In this document: piece after piece, positions 52,561 through 61,884 of the stretch
Position numbering within the stretch: position 1 is the first letter of the stretch
Layout of the letters: every line of letters starts with the position of its first letter
Assembly: GCA_943787745.1 (NCBI GenBank)
Contig: CALSNJ010000002.1
Span: 1,112,668-1,176,667, forward strand
Source: an uncultured Alphaproteobacteria bacterium
GTDB taxonomy: Bacteria; Pseudomonadota; Alphaproteobacteria; UBA6615
Length of the DNA stretch: 64,000 nucleotides
Reading direction: 5' to 3'
Notes under the pieces: model-generated
Database searches by the model: none
What the model saw: the letters and a program-made list of their open reading frames with translations, nothing else
Told to the model about the DNA's origin: nothing
Made by a program: the position numbers and the translations under genes

Positions 52561-52872
52561 ATGGACCCGTCAGAACTCGAAGATAAAGCAGAACAAGCCA
52601 GCAGGCTGCTGAAATCGCTCGCCAACGAACGACGGCTGCTCATTCTGTGTCATCTCATACAGGGCGAAAAGTCTGTCGGTGAGCTGGAGCGACTGGTTGA
52701 CCTCAGCCAGTCTGCCCTGTCACAGCACCTCGCGCGCCTGCGCAAGGAAGCTTTGGTCACGACACGCCGGGAAGCCCAGACCATTTTCTATTCGGTTGCC
52801 AGCGAGGACGCAAAAGCCGTGCTGGCGACACTCTACGAAATATATTGTGCAGACGAACCGGCTTCGGTCTGA
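52561..52872 (+). CDS. ArsR-family persulfide-responsive repressor, BigR/SqrR type
   Basis: A 103-residue winged-helix protein: LLKSLANERRLLILCHLIQG, recognition helix VDLSQSALSQHLARLRKEAL and wing TTRREAQTIFYSV. Two cysteines, Cys30 and Cys96, are 66 residues apart, the same spacing I remember for Cys42 and Cys108 of BigR, which form a tetrasulfide or disulfide on exposure to sulfide-derived persulfides. It heads the rhodanese-TauE-soeABC string, which it probably represses until reactive sulfur appears. Confidence 0.82.
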   Translation: MDPSELEDKAEQASRLLKSLANERRLLILCHLIQGEKSVGELERLVDLSQSALSQHLARLRKEALVTTRREAQTIFYSVASEDAKAVLATLYEIYCADEPASV

Positions 52873-52898: not shown

Positions 52899-53252
52899 AT
52901 GGAACCAATCGACCAAAACGGTGTTGAAGTCCTGATGCTCGACCCTCGGGAAGTGCACGAGCGCATCGAAAATGGGACGGCCTATGTGGTCGATGTTCGT
53001 GAACCGAACGAACACGAAGAAGCCCGTATCACCGGTTCGGCGCTGAACCCGCTCTCCATGTTTGACCCTGACAAAATTCAGACACCGGACGGAAAAGATC
53101 TGATCCTGCATTGTCGCAGTGCAAGACGTTGCGGTATTGCGGCAGAACACCTGATTGCAACCGGATTCACAGGACAAATTCACCGTATGGCGGGCGGCAT
53201 GATCGCCTGGGCCGCCGATGGCCTGCCGATGGAGACAGGCCCCTTAGATTGA
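52899..53252 (+). CDS. Rhodanese-domain sulfurtransferase
   Basis: A 117-residue single-domain rhodanese. The active-site loop is HCRSARR (Cys72), preceded by VVDVREPNEHEEARITGSAL and followed by IHRMAGGMIAWAADGLP. It moves sulfane sulfur between thiols, for instance from glutathione persulfide to sulfite or to TusA. AAGGA lies before the ATG. It is 26 bases after the repressor gene. Confidence 0.92.
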   Translation: MEPIDQNGVEVLMLDPREVHERIENGTAYVVDVREPNEHEEARITGSALNPLSMFDPDKIQTPDGKDLILHCRSARRCGIAAEHLIATGFTGQIHRMAGGMIAWAADGLPMETGPLD

Positions 53253-53305: not shown

Positions 53306-54232
53306 ATGAGCATTTACCTTCCCATTGCCGAGATGTCGGTCGACGTCTTTTTGATCCTGCTGATGGGCGGGGGGGTTGGATTTCTGTCCGGGTTGTTTGG
53401 TGTTGGCGGCGGGTTCCTGATGACCCCGCTCCTGATTTTCATTGGGATATCACCGGCTGTGGCCGTTGCCACCGAAGCCAACCAGATCGTTGCCGCCTCT
53501 GTCTCGGGTGTCCTGGCCCATACGCGCCGGCGCAATGTCGATTTCAAGATGGGAATCGTCCTCACAATCGGCGGATTCGCGGGTTCGAGTGTCGGCGTTG
53601 TCTTGTTCACGTTCCTGCGTGAGATCGGTCAGGTCGATCTGCTGGTTCGGCTTTGTTATGTGGTCTTCCTCGGTATTGTTGGCTCGCTCATGCTCTTCGA
53701 GAGCGGCCGCGCCATTCTTCGGCGGCAAAGCGGTACAGCCTCACGCGGAAAACTGCACCAGCACACCTGGTTCCACGGTTTGCCTTTCAAGATGCGGTTC
53801 CGCCGGTCTCGCCTCTATATCAGCGCGTTGCTTCCGATCGGAATCGGGTTTTTCGTCGGCATTCTGGCTGCGATCATGGGTGTTGGCGGCGGGTTCCTGA
53901 TGGTTCCGGCGATGATCTACCTGCTGGGGATGCCGACCTCCGTGGTCGTCGGCACCTCCCTGTTCCAGATTATCTTCGTGACCGCCAACGTCACCTTCCT
54001 GCAGGCCGTCAACAATCAAACGGTGGATATCGTTCTGGCCCTGTTGCTTCTGACCGGAGCCGTCATCGGTGCACAACTCGGCACCAAGGCCAGCGGAAAA
54101 TTGCGCGGAGAAGAACTACGAGGCCTGCTGGCCCTTATGGTACTTGGCGTTTGCGCCAAGATCGGCATCGAACTTGTGGCCAAACCAGACGATGTCTACT
54201 CGATCAACGAAATCGATGGCTTCGGACTATGA
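53306..54232 (+). CDS. Sulfite exporter TauE/SafE family permease
   Basis: A 308-residue membrane protein with about eight helices and a duplicated signature, GLFGVGGGFLMTPLL and IMGVGGGFLMVPAMI, one at the start of each half. TauE/SafE proteins move sulfite, sulfoacetate or other small anions across the inner membrane. Next to soeABC and a rhodanese, removal or uptake of sulfite is the natural role. Its stop overlaps the next start (ATGA). Confidence 0.9.
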   Translation: MSIYLPIAEMSVDVFLILLMGGGVGFLSGLFGVGGGFLMTPLLIFIGISPAVAVATEANQIVAASVSGVLAHTRRRNVDFKMGIVLTIGGFAGSSVGVVLFTFLREIGQVDLLVRLCYVVFLGIVGSLMLFESGRAILRRQSGTASRGKLHQHTWFHGLPFKMRFRRSRLYISALLPIGIGFFVGILAAIMGVGGGFLMVPAMIYLLGMPTSVVVGTSLFQIIFVTANVTFLQAVNNQTVDIVLALLLLTGAVIGAQLGTKASGKLRGEELRGLLALMVLGVCAKIGIELVAKPDDVYSINEIDGFGL

Positions 54233-55002
54233 TCAGCCTACGCTCCTCATTCCCATGGTTGCGGATGCCACTCTTCGCTCTCGCCGTGTTTGCCATTTTG
54301 CAAATTCCGGCCGATGCCGCACGCGACAATGCCCTTGTCGTTGACCTCAGTGATGATCTGATCGGGATCAGCACCGGCTTTACCGGAGCAAATGTACTTC
54401 TGTTTGGCGCTACAGACGGTGAAGGAGACGTCATCGTTCTGGTGCGCTCCCCCGACAGTCGTGTCGTTGTCCGGCGCAAATCACGGGTCGCCGGCATCTG
54501 GATCAACACAGACGAACTCACTTTCGATGACGCACCGGGCTTCTATCAAGTCGCCGCGTCGGGTCCGGTCGCAGATATCCTGCCCGCGCGCCTGCTTGAG
54601 GCCAATCAGATTGGCGTCGACAACATTGTTTTCAAGCCCCACGAGTTTCTAAGCCCCTCCGAAGAACAGGTTTTCCGGGAAGCACTGGTCCGAAACAAAC
54701 AGCGCAGTGGTCTGTACGGAGAATCTGTGGGCGATGTAAGCATCCAGGGGGGACGCCTGTTCCGCACGCGCCTTGAACTTCCCGCCAATGTTCCGACCGG
54801 CGAATACACGGTAACGGTCCTGCTGGTCGACAACCGCGAAGTTGTCAGTCGCTCCACCCGCCAATTGTCGGTCCGCAAGGTCGGCATCGAAGCCAAGGTG
54901 ACCGAATTCGCCTTCGAGCAATCCCTCTGGTATGGCATTCTTGCCGTGCTGATCGCGTTGATTGCCGGGTGGTTCGCCGGCTTCGTGTTCCGTAAGGTTT
55001 GA
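54229..55002 (+). CDS. TIGR02186-type membrane protein
   Basis: A 257-residue protein with a signal-like N-terminal helix (MPLFALAVFAILQIPADAAR), a beta-rich periplasmic domain (VVDLSDDLIGISTGFTGANV ... VVRRKSRVAGIWINTDELTF) and a C-terminal membrane anchor (YGILAVLIALIAGWFAGFVF). In alphaproteobacteria this family regularly follows a TauE-type permease, as here, and may be its periplasmic partner. Function unproven. Confidence 0.8.
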   Translation: MISLRSSFPWLRMPLFALAVFAILQIPADAARDNALVVDLSDDLIGISTGFTGANVLLFGATDGEGDVIVLVRSPDSRVVVRRKSRVAGIWINTDELTFDDAPGFYQVAASGPVADILPARLLEANQIGVDNIVFKPHEFLSPSEEQVFREALVRNKQRSGLYGESVGDVSIQGGRLFRTRLELPANVPTGEYTVTVLLVDNREVVSRSTRQLSVRKVGIEAKVTEFAFEQSLWYGILAVLIALIAGWFAGFVFRKV

Positions 55003-55007
55003 TTGAG

Positions 55008-55526
55008 ATGACTGATTCGACCGCCCCAGATTCAACCCTTGGATACCGTGCAGCGCCGGGTGACCGGCCGGCGGTATTCCTTGTGGTCGTCGATAACAGC
55101 CCGGAAATGCGTGTCGCACTTCGCTGGGCAAGCCTTCGTGCGCGACGGACCGGCGGGCGCGTCGGGTTGTTACGTGTTATTCGCCCGTCGGATTTTCAGC
55201 ACTGGGCCGCTGTCGGAAACCTGATGAGCGTCGAGGCCCGCGAGGAAGCCGAGCAGTTGCTTCAGGAACACGCAGCAGAAGTCTTTCAATTGTATGGCGG
55301 TATGCCCGTCCTTTATCTCCACGAAGGAGATGTAAAGTCTGCGATCATCGACCTGATCGATGAAGACGACGACATCCGCATTCTGGTGCTCGCTGCATCC
55401 ACCGGACGACGGGGCCCCGGCCCTCTGATCACTTATCTGACCAAGAAGGCCATCGGCCTGCTCCGTATTCCCGTCACGATCGTTCCCGGCGGGCTGACCG
55501 ACGAGCAAATCGACCGCCTGGTTTAA
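55008..55526 (+). CDS. Universal stress protein (UspA) family
   Basis: A 172-residue protein with a single Usp fold: FLVVVDNSPEMRVALRWASL at the first strand and LVLAASTGRRGPGPLITYLT near the nucleotide-binding site, where the usual GxxG-x9-G(S/T) is altered. Followed by soeA after nine bases. In several alphaproteobacteria a Usp gene sits between the TauE-type cluster and soeABC; its role is unknown. Confidence 0.82.
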   Translation: MTDSTAPDSTLGYRAAPGDRPAVFLVVVDNSPEMRVALRWASLRARRTGGRVGLLRVIRPSDFQHWAAVGNLMSVEAREEAEQLLQEHAAEVFQLYGGMPVLYLHEGDVKSAIIDLIDEDDDIRILVLAASTGRRGPGPLITYLTKKAIGLLRIPVTIVPGGLTDEQIDRLV

Positions 55527-55535
55527 CGAGGAATT

Positions 55536-58472
55536 ATGCCCGACGACATCAAACCTGATGACCGCTACGAAGTGGTCGATCTCTCGCCCACGGTTTCAGA
55601 CGAAATCAAGAGCACCACGTGCTACATGTGTGCCTGTCGATGCGGGATCAACGTGCATCTTAAAGACGGTGCAATCCGCTATATTGAGGGCAACCGCAAT
55701 CATCCGGTGAACAAGGGCGTGCTGTGCGCCAAGGGTTCAGCGGGAATCATGCAGCACTATTCGCCCGCCCGCCTCTCCCAGCCTCTCCGGCGGGTCGGTC
55801 CACGCGGTTCGGGTGAGTTCGAAGCCATTTCGTGGGAAGAAGCCCTTGCGACCGCCGGAGGTTGGCTGTCAGACATTCGCCAGAAAGACCCGCGCAAGCT
55901 TGCCTTCTTCACCGGACGCGACCAAAGCCAGTCTCTCACGGGCTTCTGGGCCAGTCAGTTCGGCACGCCCAACCACGCCGCCCATGGCGGATTCTGCTCG
56001 GTTAATATGGCCGCCGCGGGCATCTACACTATTGGTGGGTCGTTCTGGGAATTCGGGGAGCCGGACTGGGACAACACGCGCTACTTCCTGATGTTCGGCG
56101 TTGCCGAAGACCATGATTCCAACCCCATCAAAATGGGTCTGGGCAAACTGAAGACCAAGGGGCAGGCCAAGTTCGTATCGGTCAATCCGGTGCGTACAGG
56201 ATATTCCGCAATCGCTGATGAATGGGTGGGTATTCGCCCGGGCAGCGACGGCTTGTTCGTCATGGCGCTGATCCATGAGTTGTTGCATGCGGGTAAGGTC
56301 GATCTGGAGTTCCTCGTCCGCTACACCAATGCCCATTGGCTGGTCCGGCGCGCCCCGGGCACCGCAGAGGACGGCTTGTTCGTGAGAGGGCAAGACGGTC
56401 AACCGCTCGCCTATGACCGCAAGAGCGGACAAATCACAGATGCGAGCCGGATCGATATAGACCCGGCCATGCGTGGCAACTTCCCGCTCGACGAATCCAT
56501 CACTGGTGAAAGCGGCACCGACGCAGAGGCGGTTCCGGCTTTTGAATTGCTGCTCGAACGCTATCTCGACCCACGCTACAGCCCGGATGCCGTCGCACCA
56601 CAGACCGGAATTGATGCCGACACCATTCGCCGGATTGCCGGCGAATTGGCCCATGCCGCTTTTGAGCAGGAAATCACCCTTGATGTGCCCTGGACCGACT
56701 GGGCCGGGCGCAAGCATGACAAGATGATCGGACGACCGGTTTCCATGCATGCCATGCGTGGAATTTCTGCCCATTCGAACGGCTTCCAGACGTGCCGGGC
56801 CATCCATCTGTTGCAGATGCTGCTTGGCAGCATCGATTGCCCCGGTGGGTTCCGCTACAAGCCCCCCTTCCCACGCCCGGCGCCTCCGGGACCAAAGCCT
56901 GCGGGCAAGCCAGATCAGGTTTCTCCCGGAAACCCGATGGCCGGTCCACCACTGGGATTCGTGACCGCACCCGACGATCTGCTGGTTGACGATAACGGCA
57001 AGCCCCTGCGCATCGACAAGGCCTATTCCTGGGATGCACCGATCGCGGCCCACGGAATGATGCACACGGTCATTCGCAATGCGTGGGCCGGTGACCCCTA
57101 CAACATTGATGTCCTGTTCATGTTCATGGCGAATATGAGCTGGAATTCGTCGATGAACACGACCGAAACCATCAAGATGCTCACCGATACCGATCCGGAG
57201 ACCGGCGAGTACAAAATTCCAAAGATCATTTACTCAGATGCCTTCCAGTCAGAAATGGTGGCTTATGCCGACCTGATCCTTCCTGACACCACATATCTGG
57301 AACGGTGGGATTGCATCAGCCTGCTCGACCGCCCGATCAGCGATGCTGATGGTCCAGCTGATGCCATCCGGCAACCGGTCATCGCACCGGACCGTGACGT
57401 CCGCCCGTTCCAGGACGTGCTGATAGAACTTGGCGTCCGGCTCGGACTGCCCGCGTTCGTGAACGATGACGGCGGCGCCAAGTATCCCGGCGGCTATCCC
57501 GATTACCTCGCCAACCACGAGCGTACACCCGGTGTGGGACCCCTCGCAGGCTGGCGTGGAGAGAATGAAGATTCTCACGGAAACGGCGCGCCAAACCCAA
57601 ACCAGCTCGACCGGTATATTGAGAATGGTTGCTTCTGGAAGGGTGAGTTCACCCCCAGTCAGCGCTATTACAAACACGCCAACCGGGACTATCTCGACCA
57701 CGCGGCAGAGATGGGCTGGATTCCTTCTGCAGATCAGATCGTCCTGCAACTCTACAGCGAACCGATGCAGCGTTTCAAACTGGCAGGACTGGGCTTTGGC
57801 GAGACCTTGCCGCCAGAGGGTCACCGCAAGCGTATTGCCGAGACATTTGATCCGCTGCCAATCTGGTATGCACCATTTGAAGACAGCCATTCCGATCCGG
57901 CGGCCTACCCCATCCATGCGCTGACCCAGCGCCCGATGGCGATGTACCATTCGTGGGGATCACAGAACACGTGGCTGCGGCAGATTCATGGCTGGAACAA
58001 GCTCTACATGAACCGCAAGACCGGCGAGGCGCAGGGTCTTGTTGATGGCGACAAGGTGCGTGTCGAAAGCCCCTATGGATCGATCGGCGCAATCATTTCT
58101 CTGATGGAGGGCTGCAACACCGACACGGTGTGGACGTGGAATGCCATCGGCAAGAAAAAGGGTGCCTGGAACCTCTCCAAGGACGCCCCGGAATCCAACA
58201 AAGGCTTCCTGCTCAATCATCTGATCACCGACCTCCTGCCACCCAGAGATGGTTATCGGTTTGCCAACACCGACCCCATCACCGGGCAGGCAGCCTGGTT
58301 TGATCTCCGTGTACGCGTCATCAAGGACGACACCGTGGAACTGGGCGACGGCAGCAAACAATCTCTTCCCCGGCCACCGGGCATCGAACCGGCCAAAAAG
58401 CGTTCTCGCTATGGCGCGCAGTTCCTGCCCAGCGGCAACTGGCGGCGAAACCGGAAAGGAGGCGAATCATGA
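55536..58472 (+). CDS. soeA: Sulfite dehydrogenase (quinone), molybdopterin subunit SoeA
   Basis: A 978-residue molybdopterin oxidoreductase of the DMSO-reductase/polysulfide-reductase branch. The N-terminal [4Fe-4S] site is Cys29-x2-Cys32-x3-Cys36-x27-Cys64 (TTCYMCACRC ... GVLCAKG). The C-terminal molydopterin-dinucleotide-binding domain includes YPIHALTQRPMAMYHSWGSQ. No Tat signal is present, matching the cytoplasmic SoeABC that oxidises sulfite to sulfate and passes electrons to quinone. The soeABC order and the TauE/rhodanese context support the assignment over thiosulfate or tetrathionate reductases. Confidence 0.88.
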   Translation: MPDDIKPDDRYEVVDLSPTVSDEIKSTTCYMCACRCGINVHLKDGAIRYIEGNRNHPVNKGVLCAKGSAGIMQHYSPARLSQPLRRVGPRGSGEFEAISWEEALATAGGWLSDIRQKDPRKLAFFTGRDQSQSLTGFWASQFGTPNHAAHGGFCSVNMAAAGIYTIGGSFWEFGEPDWDNTRYFLMFGVAEDHDSNPIKMGLGKLKTKGQAKFVSVNPVRTGYSAIADEWVGIRPGSDGLFVMALIHELLHAGKVDLEFLVRYTNAHWLVRRAPGTAEDGLFVRGQDGQPLAYDRKSGQITDASRIDIDPAMRGNFPLDESITGESGTDAEAVPAFELLLERYLDPRYSPDAVAPQTGIDADTIRRIAGELAHAAFEQEITLDVPWTDWAGRKHDKMIGRPVSMHAMRGISAHSNGFQTCRAIHLLQMLLGSIDCPGGFRYKPPFPRPAPPGPKPAGKPDQVSPGNPMAGPPLGFVTAPDDLLVDDNGKPLRIDKAYSWDAPIAAHGMMHTVIRNAWAGDPYNIDVLFMFMANMSWNSSMNTTETIKMLTDTDPETGEYKIPKIIYSDAFQSEMVAYADLILPDTTYLERWDCISLLDRPISDADGPADAIRQPVIAPDRDVRPFQDVLIELGVRLGLPAFVNDDGGAKYPGGYPDYLANHERTPGVGPLAGWRGENEDSHGNGAPNPNQLDRYIENGCFWKGEFTPSQRYYKHANRDYLDHAAEMGWIPSADQIVLQLYSEPMQRFKLAGLGFGETLPPEGHRKRIAETFDPLPIWYAPFEDSHSDPAAYPIHALTQRPMAMYHSWGSQNTWLRQIHGWNKLYMNRKTGEAQGLVDGDKVRVESPYGSIGAIISLMEGCNTDTVWTWNAIGKKKGAWNLSKDAPESNKGFLLNHLITDLLPPRDGYRFANTDPITGQAAWFDLRVRVIKDDTVELGDGSKQSLPRPPGIEPAKKRSRYGAQFLPSGNWRRNRKGGES

Positions 58473-59218
58473 CCAGCCTTCCCAAGCAAGCCAGTGACCA
58501 GAAACTGGGTCTCGTCATCGATCTGGACATCTGCGTGGGGTGCCATGCGTGCGCCGTAAACTGCAAGGAATGGAACACCGGAGGTCATTCCGCGCCACTG
58601 ACCGATGAAGACCCTTATGGTGCAGACCCGCTCGGTGTCTGGTTCAATCGCATCCACACCTACGAAGCCGGCGACGGCCCGGATGGACAGACGGTTCATT
58701 TCCCGCGAAGCTGCCTGCACTGTGAAGAACCGGCCTGCGTCACGGTTTGCCCCACCGGTGCCAGCTACAAGCGCGAATCGGATGGCATTGTTCTGGTCAA
58801 CGCAGACACCTGCATCGGCTGCAAGCTCTGCTCTTGGGCCTGCCCCTACGGTGCACGTGAATATGACCACTCAGATGGCGTGATGAAGAAGTGCACCCTC
58901 TGCATCGATCGGATCGAAAACCAGAACCTTCCGGAGATCGATCGTGTCCCGGCCTGCGTATCAACCTGCCCCGCTTCGGCCCGCCATTTTGGTGATCTCG
59001 GAGACCCCAATTCCGAAGTCAGCCAGATCGTCGCCGAGCGCGGTGGCTATGACCTGATGCCGGAAATGGACATGAAACCAACGAACAAATACCTGCCCCC
59101 CCGCGCCCGCCCGGTCTCCACGGCACCGACACCCGAGAACACCCCCATTCGCGCAGCGGAAAGCGGTGGCACGGGCAGTCGGTTTCTTGACTGGGTCGAT
59201 CAGACCCTGTCGCGTTAG
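58469..59218 (+). CDS. soeB: Sulfite dehydrogenase iron-sulfur subunit SoeB
   Basis: A 249-residue protein with four ferredoxin-type [4Fe-4S] clusters: DICVGCHACAVNCKEWN, SCLHCEEPACVTVCPTGA, ADTCIGCKLCSWACPYGA and KKCTLCIDRI with VPACVSTCPASA. It wires SoeA to the membrane subunit. ATGA overlap with soeA. The C-terminal 50 residues are a proline-rich tail without cysteines. Confidence 0.9.
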   Translation: MTSLPKQASDQKLGLVIDLDICVGCHACAVNCKEWNTGGHSAPLTDEDPYGADPLGVWFNRIHTYEAGDGPDGQTVHFPRSCLHCEEPACVTVCPTGASYKRESDGIVLVNADTCIGCKLCSWACPYGAREYDHSDGVMKKCTLCIDRIENQNLPEIDRVPACVSTCPASARHFGDLGDPNSEVSQIVAERGGYDLMPEMDMKPTNKYLPPRARPVSTAPTPENTPIRAAESGGTGSRFLDWVDQTLSR

Positions 59219-59238: not shown

Positions 59239-60186
59239 ATGCATCCAGCTTATTCCGTCATATTCTTCACAACCGCCTCCGGCGCCGGCTACGGCATGCT
59301 GGTCTGGCTCGCGGCACTCGCGGCTTTGGGTGATCCCAACCCCGGCTTGGTCGGCGGGCTTATTCTTTTTGCATTGGCGCTGGGGCTCGTGACCGCGGGC
59401 CTTCTCTCTTCAACCTTCCATCTTGGCCATCCTGAACGCGCCTGGCGCGCCCTGTCCCAGTGGCGTTCGTCATGGCTGTCGCGTGAAGGCGTTGCAGCCA
59501 TCATCACCTATGGTCCGGCATTGCTGTTTGCGCTGGGATGGGTTGTCTTCACCTCAGTTGAAGGCATCTGGATGATAGTTGGTCTCGTGGCCGCATTCAT
59601 GGCGCTCGTCACCGTCGCCTGCACGGGCATGATCTACGCCAGTCTCAAGGCCATCCCGCGCTGGACGGATATCACCGTTGTACCGGTCTATTTGGCATTC
59701 GCCTTGTCGACGGGTGGCGCGTTGGCCCTTGCAACTCTGGCCGTGATTTCGCCCCTGCCTTCCCTTTGGGCGTGGCTCGTGACACTGGCGATCGCTCTGT
59801 CCTGGGGCCTCAAGCTTGTTTATTGGAACCGGATCGACAACGCAGCCCCCGTGGCGACCGCCGAAACCGCGACCGGCCTTGGCCATATCGGGCCAGTCTC
59901 CCTGTTCGAAGCGCCTCACACCGGTGAGAACTACATCATGCGTGAAATGGGCTTTCAGATCGCGCGCAAGCACGCCGCGCGACTGCGGATAATCGCCCTT
60001 GTGCTGGGCGGCGCAGTTCCCCTGCTCGCCTTCGCCACGGCCGCCTTGAGCGTAGGCCCTGTCATGGTTGCCGCGTGCATCGTTGGAGTGGCCGGGGTTG
60101 GCATTGGTGTCTTGCTCGAACGCTGGCTGTTTTTCGCCGAAGCACAACACGCGGCCATGCTCTATTACGGCGCGAAGGCTGTTTGA
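59239..60186 (+). CDS. soeC: Sulfite dehydrogenase membrane anchor SoeC (DmsC-like)
   Basis: A 315-residue DmsC-type membrane protein with about eight helices, starting MHPAYSVIFFTTASGAGYGM and containing LLSSTFHLGHPERAWRALSQ-WRSSWLSREG, the conserved first-loop motif of the family. It anchors SoeAB to the cytoplasmic face and reduces quinone without heme. 20 bases after soeB. Confidence 0.88.
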   Translation: MHPAYSVIFFTTASGAGYGMLVWLAALAALGDPNPGLVGGLILFALALGLVTAGLLSSTFHLGHPERAWRALSQWRSSWLSREGVAAIITYGPALLFALGWVVFTSVEGIWMIVGLVAAFMALVTVACTGMIYASLKAIPRWTDITVVPVYLAFALSTGGALALATLAVISPLPSLWAWLVTLAIALSWGLKLVYWNRIDNAAPVATAETATGLGHIGPVSLFEAPHTGENYIMREMGFQIARKHAARLRIIALVLGGAVPLLAFATAALSVGPVMVAACIVGVAGVGIGVLLERWLFFAEAQHAAMLYYGAKAV

Positions 60187-60193
60187 GGGTCTG

Positions 60194-61105
60194 ATGGCCG
60201 AAGTCATTTGCATCGGCGTCGCCTTTCTCGACAACGTCTTCGAGGCAGATCTGCCTGTAAGTGATGACAGCAAAACTTTTGCGCGGAACTATCAACAATC
60301 CGGAGGCGGCATGGCGGCCACCGCCAGTGTTGCTGTTGTAACTCTTGGCGGGCGGGCATCGCTCTGGGGACGTATCGGCAACGATGAGGCCGGAGAGCGC
60401 ATCCGCGAGGGTCTCCATCGACGCGGTGTGATGACCGATACCATCCGCCGAATAGACGGGGCGCAGTCCCCGGTGTCATCGGTGGTGATCGGCCACAAGG
60501 GCGCACGACAGGCCATTGTCTTTCCGGGCCGTAATCTGGATAGCGATCCCGACTGGCTCCCCCTTGAGCGCATTGCCGAGGTCAGCGCCATTCTGGTTGA
60601 CCCGCGTTGGCCAGAGGCAGCGATGGTGACCCTGACCCACGCGCGCGAAAACAACATCCCCGCAATTCTTGATGCGGATATTGGCCCTTACCCGGTGCCA
60701 CACGAACTGGTCGAACTGGCGAGCCACGCCATCTTTTCACTTCCCGGTTTGGCGCAGTACACCGACACATCCGATATACCGACAGGCCTTCGCAAGGCGA
60801 GCGAAGCGACAGAAGCGCTGGTCGGCGTCACAGCGGGCAGCGAAGGATTTTACTGGCTGGCCGAAGATCACAGCGAGATACACCATATTCCCGGCCTGAC
60901 TATTGAAGCCGTGGACACACTGGGCGCCGGTGACGTCTTCCACGGCGCATTTGCGCTCGCCATCGGCGAAGGAAAGTCGATCGACGAGGCCGCACAGTTC
61001 GCAAACACCGCAGCGGGGCTCAAATGCGCCCGCAGTGGCGGACGTGACGCCATCCCGTCACGGGCTGAGGTTTGGGTCGTGCTGGGGAAACCTGAGGCCG
61101 CTTAG
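60194..61105 (+). CDS. PfkB-family sugar kinase, YihV (sulfofructose kinase)-like
   Basis: A 303-residue ribokinase-fold enzyme. The N-terminal substrate region reads SDDSKTFARNYQQSGGGMAA, the nucleotide region DTLGAGDVFHGAFALAIGEG holds the catalytic Asp, and the end reads LKCARSGGRDAIPSR. Compared from memory with E. coli YihV, the overall pattern is collinear and the residues at positions 27 (Lys) and 138 (Arg), linked to sulfonate binding, are kept, whereas position 109 is Val rather than Asn. It follows soeC by seven bases, so a link to sulfosugar use is tempting but unproven; a plain sugar kinase is possible. Confidence 0.7.
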   Translation: MAEVICIGVAFLDNVFEADLPVSDDSKTFARNYQQSGGGMAATASVAVVTLGGRASLWGRIGNDEAGERIREGLHRRGVMTDTIRRIDGAQSPVSSVVIGHKGARQAIVFPGRNLDSDPDWLPLERIAEVSAILVDPRWPEAAMVTLTHARENNIPAILDADIGPYPVPHELVELASHAIFSLPGLAQYTDTSDIPTGLRKASEATEALVGVTAGSEGFYWLAEDHSEIHHIPGLTIEAVDTLGAGDVFHGAFALAIGEGKSIDEAAQFANTAAGLKCARSGGRDAIPSRAEVWVVLGKPEAA

Positions 61106-61884
61106 CCTACCAGCTTCGGCATTTCGATCGGGCCTTCGACAGACTGGGTCACGAACTGGCGGACATAGGCGTTGTCGGTTGCATCCAGTTCGGCAATCGC
61201 GTCATTCCAGACAACCTTGCCCTCATGCAGCATGAGGACGCTGTCGGCAATGTTGCGCACGACAGCAAGGTCACTGACGATGGAGATCACCGTCGCGCCA
61301 AGGTCATCGACGCGTTCGTTGATCAACTCGCTGATGATGTTGCTCATAATCGGATCAAGACCGGCGGTAGGTTCGTCGAGAAACAGGATTTCTGGATCCG
61401 TCGCGAAAGCACGGGCCAGCCCAACGCGCTTTTGCATGCCACCGGAGACTTCGGAGGGATAGAGGTCTGCTGTTTCGGGTGCGAGTCCAACTTGCCGCAG
61501 GCGCTCGATGGCGCGCTCCCGGGCCTCGGTTGGATTGATACCCGCTTCATGGGTCAACCGAAACGCGATGTTTTCCCAGATCAACATGCTGTCGAACAGA
61601 CCCTGACGCTGGAACAGAACGCCAAAGCGCTGCATCCATGTCATCCGCTCGTTTTCCGGCATGCCGATGGTCTCAACACCATCGACCTTGATGCTCCCGG
61701 AATCCGGCGTGATCAGACCAAGAATGCATTTGAGCAGGAGAGACTTCCCGCTGCCCGAACCGCCGATCAGAACAAGGGACTGGCGCGGGGCCAGCGTCAG
61801 ATCCACGCTATCCAGCGCACGCACGTTGTCAAAGGCGTGCGTCACGCCGGAAAGCTGGATTTTCGGCTGATCCGCGCCGGTCAT
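61102..61884 (-). CDS. MlaF-like ABC transporter ATP-binding protein
   Basis: A 260-residue ABC ATPase: Walker A GGSGSGKSLLL, Q-loop VLFQRQGLFDSM, signature EVSGGMQKRVGLARA and Walker B ILFLDEPTAGLDP. The Q-loop and DPIMSN stretch are those of the Mla/Mce (phospholipid transport) class. The expected permease (MlaE) and MCE protein are not next to it; it lies 13 bases after mmsA. Convergent with the kinase gene, overlapping by four bases. Confidence 0.82.
   Translation of the reverse strand: MTGADQPKIQLSGVTHAFDNVRALDSVDLTLAPRQSLVLIGGSGSGKSLLLKCILGLITPDSGSIKVDGVETIGMPENERMTWMQRFGVLFQRQGLFDSMLIWENIAFRLTHEAGINPTEARERAIERLRQVGLAPETADLYPSEVSGGMQKRVGLARAFATDPEILFLDEPTAGLDPIMSNIISELINERVDDLGATVISIVSDLAVVRNIADSVLMLHEGKVVWNDAIAELDATDNAYVRQFVTQSVEGPIEMPKLVG

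Follow-up and report, generated by a model that had tools for sequence, protein, structure and literature searches.

A YihV-clade kinase gene behind soeABC in one alphaproteobacterial family: probably a dispensable, lineage-specific sugar kinase

Three residues of the Escherichia coli kinase YihV, Lys27, Asn109 and Arg138, are presumably its sulfonate-binding positions. The end products of the sulfo-EMP pathway are DHPS or sulfolactate, not sulfite (PMC12890257), so that finding a kinase beside sulfite oxidation genes is not enough to define a pathway. Sulfite oxidation is represented by the SoeABC sulfite dehydrogenase operon of Ruegeria pomeroyi (SPO3557-3559), which is annotated beside pta and near tauR, a setting that fits sulfite derived from sulfonates, and for which no kinase is named (PMC4334477). 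PfkB-type proteins can also have a non-metabolic role, as do the plant proteins FLN1 and FLN2, which belong to the plastid RNA polymerase complex (PMC3409070).

The window analysed here, a stretch of 64,000 nucleotides from an uncultured alphaproteobacterium, carries an operon of the SoeABC type as judged by subunit composition, with a cytoplasmic-type molybdenum cofactor subunit, a 4Fe-4S subunit and a DmsC-type anchor. The SoeA-like molybdopterin catalytic subunit (55536..58472, plus strand, 978 aa) has no twin-arginine signal that could be seen at its N-terminus, and is followed on the same strand by a SoeB-like 4Fe-4S subunit of 249 aa (58469..59218) and a SoeC-like membrane anchor (59239..60186). 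Upstream, also on the plus strand, lie an ArsR-family regulator that is BigR-like but scores under the BigR cut-off (52561..52872), a rhodanese-domain protein (52899..53252), a TauE/SafE-family permease resembling sulfite exporters and kept in relatives (53306..54232), a PF09608 (Alph_Pro_TM) membrane protein (54229..55002) and a universal stress protein (Usp) family member (54999..55526), the last two being part of the conserved operon. The sequence-only reading had placed a YihV-like kinase (60194..61105, plus strand) directly behind soeABC, and so it is: the kinase ATG is 7 bp downstream of the soeC stop, and a GAGGG Shine-Dalgarno-like stretch overlaps that stop. At its other end the kinase converges with a 4-nt overlap on an MlaF-like ABC ATPase gene (61102..61884, minus strand), with a methylmalonate-semialdehyde dehydrogenase next in the conserved order. 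The whole order, from the BigR-like gene through rhodanese, TauE, PF09608, Usp, soeA, soeB and soeC to the kinase, is found again in nine more genomes from this family, short contigs showing part of it only. Because the order is kept in nine genomes, and decayed remnants of the kinase sit in the same place in two more, a chance neighbourhood of soeC and kinase was rejected.

The kinase gene is real and intact, and encodes a 303-aa relative of YihV. Its single full-length Pfam match is PfkB (PF00294, E 8e-39, 134 bits against a cut-off of 25.8), the DTLGAGDVFHG motif is intact, and PROSITE signature 2 is present as DTLGAGDVFHGAFA at residue 241, including the GAGD anion hole and the catalytic Asp. 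The window copy thus does not show the combination taken to mark a pseudokinase, in which the anion-hole motif is lost while constraint is kept. A phmmer search of PDB sequences ranked YihV first (7ag6, 1.5e-57), closely followed by 2rbc (3e-56), with the best ribokinase at 1.8e-28. Foldseek gave a similar ranking for the AlphaFold model (YihV entries, then 2RBC, then ribokinases), but the model has a mean pLDDT of 66.7 and residues 9-62 and 87-113 are mostly below 50, so it is no guide to the site around K27 and V109. That site is better read from the alignment with YihV, which bears out the collinearity claimed from the sequence alone, along with each of the residues named there: Lys27 and Arg138 are present, and position 109 (YihV numbering) is Val.

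The sequence-only reading had accepted that nesting within a ribokinase or fructokinase clade would count against its proposal. In a maximum-likelihood tree of 51 kinases, the window kinase falls inside a YihV-like clade (45 rows, support 99/98), away from RbsK, FrlD, KdgK and YdjH and from the other PfkB proteins of its own genome. Scores against the ribokinase equivalog TIGR02152 (121.5, cut-off 299.65) and the fructokinase equivalog NF006957 (61.6, cut-off 450) are far below threshold, and on these models and the tree placement a ribokinase or fructokinase identity was rejected. A looser version of the same idea, that this is a broad-specificity or housekeeping ketose kinase for fructose or ribose, unrelated to sulfur and carried behind soeC by chance, draws on the fact that the best NCBIfam matches, though under cut-off, are ribokinase models, and that some kinases of the clade are encoded near ordinary sugar ABC importers. 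However, the tree places the kinase outside the group of ribokinase, FrlD and KdgK, and the gene has been kept behind soeC across two genera; we regard this explanation as improbable.

Within the YihV-like clade, the soe-linked kinases form a group of their own (100/100) on a long stem, outside the subclade that unites YihV with a Zymomonas kinase (100/92). Lys27 is invariant in the 35 clade members outside the soe-linked group and Arg138 is found in nearly all, including rhizobial kinases encoded beside plain sugar importers with no sulfoglycolysis neighbours. Because the two residues run almost clade-wide through such varied neighbourhoods, they are not diagnostic, and sulfosugar kinases should not be called from K27 and R138 alone. 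Position 109 behaves differently, being Val, Ile or Met across the soe-linked clade, and a LacD/YihT-type or class II aldolase is encoded near 12 of the 14 kinases with Asn109 as against 4 of the 26 without it. Several of the Asn109 kinases also have as neighbours an epimerase, a semialdehyde dehydrogenase and a protein that resembles, under the family cut-off, the sulfoquinovose isomerase SftI. The association with aldolases (Fisher test, p ~2e-5) is suggestive and not statistical proof, because Asn109 changes only twice on the tree; even so, position 109 read together with a neighbouring aldolase says more than K27 and R138 do. The window kinase, with Val at 109, lacks the full triad of YihV proper.

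The presence of the kinase beside sulfite oxidation genes had suggested a sulfosugar kinase whose pathway releases sulfite, and this would require unlinked genes that import or make a sulfo-ketose, with downstream C-S cleavage supplying sulfite to SoeABC. YihV is the nearest solved relative, K27 and R138 are kept, the location behind soeC fits, and several clade members sit in sulfo-EMP-like clusters with an SftI-like isomerase and a LacD-type aldolase. Against this, Asn109 is replaced throughout the soe-linked clade, K27 itself is lost in five relatives (G005 and four genomes of genus g5), sulfo-EMP yields no sulfite, and the linkage is narrow and decaying. The partners are missing as well. 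As the sequence-only reading had observed, no sulfoquinovosidase, isomerase, aldolase or sulfolactaldehyde reductase adjoins the kinase, and the search of the genome, which is 97.9% complete, found no GH31 sulfoquinovosidase, no SftI-like isomerase, no LacD/YihT-type aldolase and no Xsc above cut-off. YihS was used as its own query, since the PF07221 profile found no match in the E. coli control, and gave no match at E 1e-3; the only DeoC-family aldolase of the genome is a class I fructose-bisphosphate aldolase. A sulfo-EMP pathway encoded elsewhere in the genome was rejected on these absences, for a partner set of GH31 sulfoquinovosidase, SftI-like and YihS-like isomerases and LacD/YihT-type aldolase; sulfonate mono- and dioxygenases (oxygenolytic desulfonation) and GH188-type NAD-dependent sulfoquinovosidases lie beyond that set, NAD-dependent sulfoquinovosidases being the subject of PMC10755693. 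Thus, of the sulfosugar proposal the clade placement stands, while the residues first put forward for it are undiagnostic and the third, with the pathway partners, is absent; such a kinase is possible, at low probability. The doubt already voiced about the substrate was right, and the alternative offered with it, another sugar or a sulfonate, may apply. As a side observation, one relative (G004) has a LacD-like aldolase on a 3.2 kb contig (L154, G004:C97) that may be contamination, the gene being absent from the other searched genomes of the genus.

Only in two genera of a single alphaproteobacterial family is the kinase linked to soeABC. Six genomes of the same family have soeABC without a kinase behind soeC: in genera g7 and g9 the next gene after soeC is MlaF, and soeABC is likewise present and the kinase absent in G007, G012 and G016. 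Elsewhere in the class a soeC homologue occurs in 94 of 386 sampled genomes, and among the 26 best-scoring of these loci, with flanks of up to 1.5 kb each, none has a kinase beside soeC, for which reason the association is regarded as narrow. The survey that had been proposed of how often this kinase follows soeC thus finds it to do so in two genera and to be missing from six relatives and from 26 of 26 loci in the rest of the class. A linkage so young, restricted and repeatedly lost is a poor fit with a step that a sulfite-releasing pathway could not do without, and that part of the original proposal is not supported. The public records of seven of the kinase loci are metagenome-assembled genomes, labelled Alphaproteobacteria, Rhodospirillaceae (two) or Proteobacteria, and a scan of genome contigs gave only seven close relatives, all already in the set, and one distant match. 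A match on a 2.7 kb record of a phage collection, labelled Escherichia phage (OR845403.1), is ~40% identical to the window kinase, as are Salmonella YihV genes, and the record resembles host DNA.

The fate of the kinase can be followed through the 12 genomes in which it or its remains lie behind soeC: five copies are intact, four are open frames with eroded motifs, one has a C-terminal deletion and two are remnants. The intact copies are those of the window, G001, G003, G004 and G005, the last with K27T, and the G004/G001 pair is under purifying selection (dN/dS ~0.06). In G021 (L040) the C-terminus has been lost, and in G002 and G022 remnants with frameshifts and stops lie between soeC and mlaF (L048:3393-3839 and L080:10360-10578). 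Beside the decayed kinases soeB and soeC are still conserved, as is soeA on those contigs that reach it. Because the soe genes remain intact where the kinase has decayed or is absent, the kinase is dispensable for sulfite oxidation.

What stands out most is the form under constraint in genus g5 (G009, G015, G019 and G023; loci L041, L042, L043 and L039), in which GAGD has become GARD and FHG has become FLG, with K27L and M40T; three of the four also have DT changed to DK, and that of G009 has R138C. PROSITE signature 2 finds no match in these four kinases, and the GARD, K27L and H-to-L substitutions affect residues that vary little or not at all in the rest of the clade. Yet the reading frames are open, differences at codon positions 1/2/3 number ~35/13/120, and pairwise dN/dS is ~0.05-0.13, close to the values for SoeC and MlaF, hinting at a maintained pseudokinase; from these substitutions the copies may be either a pseudokinase with a kept role or an enzyme with a changed ATP site. 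This pattern, with the precedent of FLN1 and FLN2, gives some weight to a structural or regulatory role in the soe operon, such as sugar or nucleotide sensing or binding to SoeABC or a regulator, with a pseudokinase in g5. The window copy has all the catalytic motifs, however, three genomes with intact soeABC have a truncated or decayed kinase, no partner is known, and GARD might still bind ATP, so such a role appears rather unlikely. Somewhat less probable again is its more specific form, in which the g5 protein would be a selectively maintained, non-catalytic PfkB pseudokinase of the soe operon and the window copy the still-active ancestral type.

On the evidence, this is more likely an ordinary keto-sugar kinase from a clade already known, probably active, that became part of the soe operon in a single lineage. 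Because the key residue Asn109 and the rest of the sulfo-EMP pathway are missing, the gene probably encodes a sugar kinase that is lineage-specific and dispensable. The fuller account, to which we give about an even chance, is of a catalytically competent, ATP-dependent, ketose-type kinase of the YihV clade, with a keto-sugar other than sulfofructose as substrate, that is an optional and eroding passenger of the operon. The ancestor of the two genera would have acquired it, or retained it, between soeC and mlaF, and it would be translated as the last gene of the soe operon. Its substrate would most likely be a small keto-sugar, possibly with an acidic tail near K27 and R138, and not the 6-deoxy-6-sulfofructose of the sulfo-EMP pathway, and it would have no functional tie to sulfite. 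The intact PfkB signature and catalytic Asp, the placement in the YihV-like clade but in a separate soe-linked group, Val109, the absent partner genes, the soeC loci with no kinase behind them and the losses with soeABC intact all count for this account; the tight spacing behind soeC and the purifying selection on the intact pair count against it, being more in keeping with a used function tied to operon expression. A partner gene may also have been missed, the genome being about 98% complete. At this locus one can trace how a sugar kinase joins a sulfite-oxidation operon and is then eroded, truncated or deleted, with a copy that looks dead being kept under selection in one lineage.

Among known systems, the window kinase is most like E. 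coli YihV (b3883; PDB 7ag6, 7agh, 7agk), with which it shares the PfkB clade, collinearity, K27, R138-W139, the GGG motif and DTxGAGDVFHG, but it differs in having Val109, in lying outside the YihV subclade and in being encoded behind soeC and not in a yih-type cluster. Agrobacterium 2RBC and its rhizobial plasmid relatives, the latter ~38-42% identical to the window kinase, share the clade, K27, R138 and the lack of Asn109. They differ in having AEGMASS where the window kinase has GGGMAAT and Pro at position 109, and the neighbours of the rhizobial kinases are sugar ABC importers, GntR and DapA-family proteins. Kinases of the same wider clade in the sulfo-EMP-like clusters of G045, G136, G234, G403 and a Shinella plasmid, and on a Variovorax plasmid (39-47% identity), differ in keeping Asn109 and having an adjacent LacD-type aldolase, several of these clusters adding an SftI-like isomerase, an epimerase and a semialdehyde dehydrogenase.

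Some of these clusters merit description in their own right. Around the kinases of G045, G234 and G136 (L047, L133 and L134) is a conserved alphaproteobacterial cluster of a DeoR-type regulator, TRAP importer, YihV-clade kinase, LacD-type aldolase, SftI-like isomerase, Gfo/Idh protein, epimerase, semialdehyde dehydrogenase and 2-hydroxyacid dehydrogenase, plus a MauG-like protein in G045. Plasmids of Cereibacter sphaeroides (L049) and Shinella sp. HZN7 (L053) encode YihV-clade kinases 45% and 42% identical to that of the window, together with a sugar ABC importer, LacD-like aldolase and semialdehyde dehydrogenase, and in Shinella also a TSUP transporter; both are candidate sulfosugar pathways. 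On a plasmid of Zymomonas mobilis CP4 (L138, 1297-8007), a kinase 60% identical to YihV neighbours an SftI-like isomerase, an epimerase, a class II aldolase and a Gfo/Idh protein, in what looks like a hybrid of sulfo-EMP and sulfo-EMP2 clusters.

The precedent of FLN1 and FLN2, which is from a plant transcription complex, applies to the eroded g5 copies only and not to the window copy. The window operon itself is the same kind of sulfite dehydrogenase operon as SoeABC of Ruegeria pomeroyi, from which it differs in the BigR-like, rhodanese, TauE and Usp genes that lie upstream.
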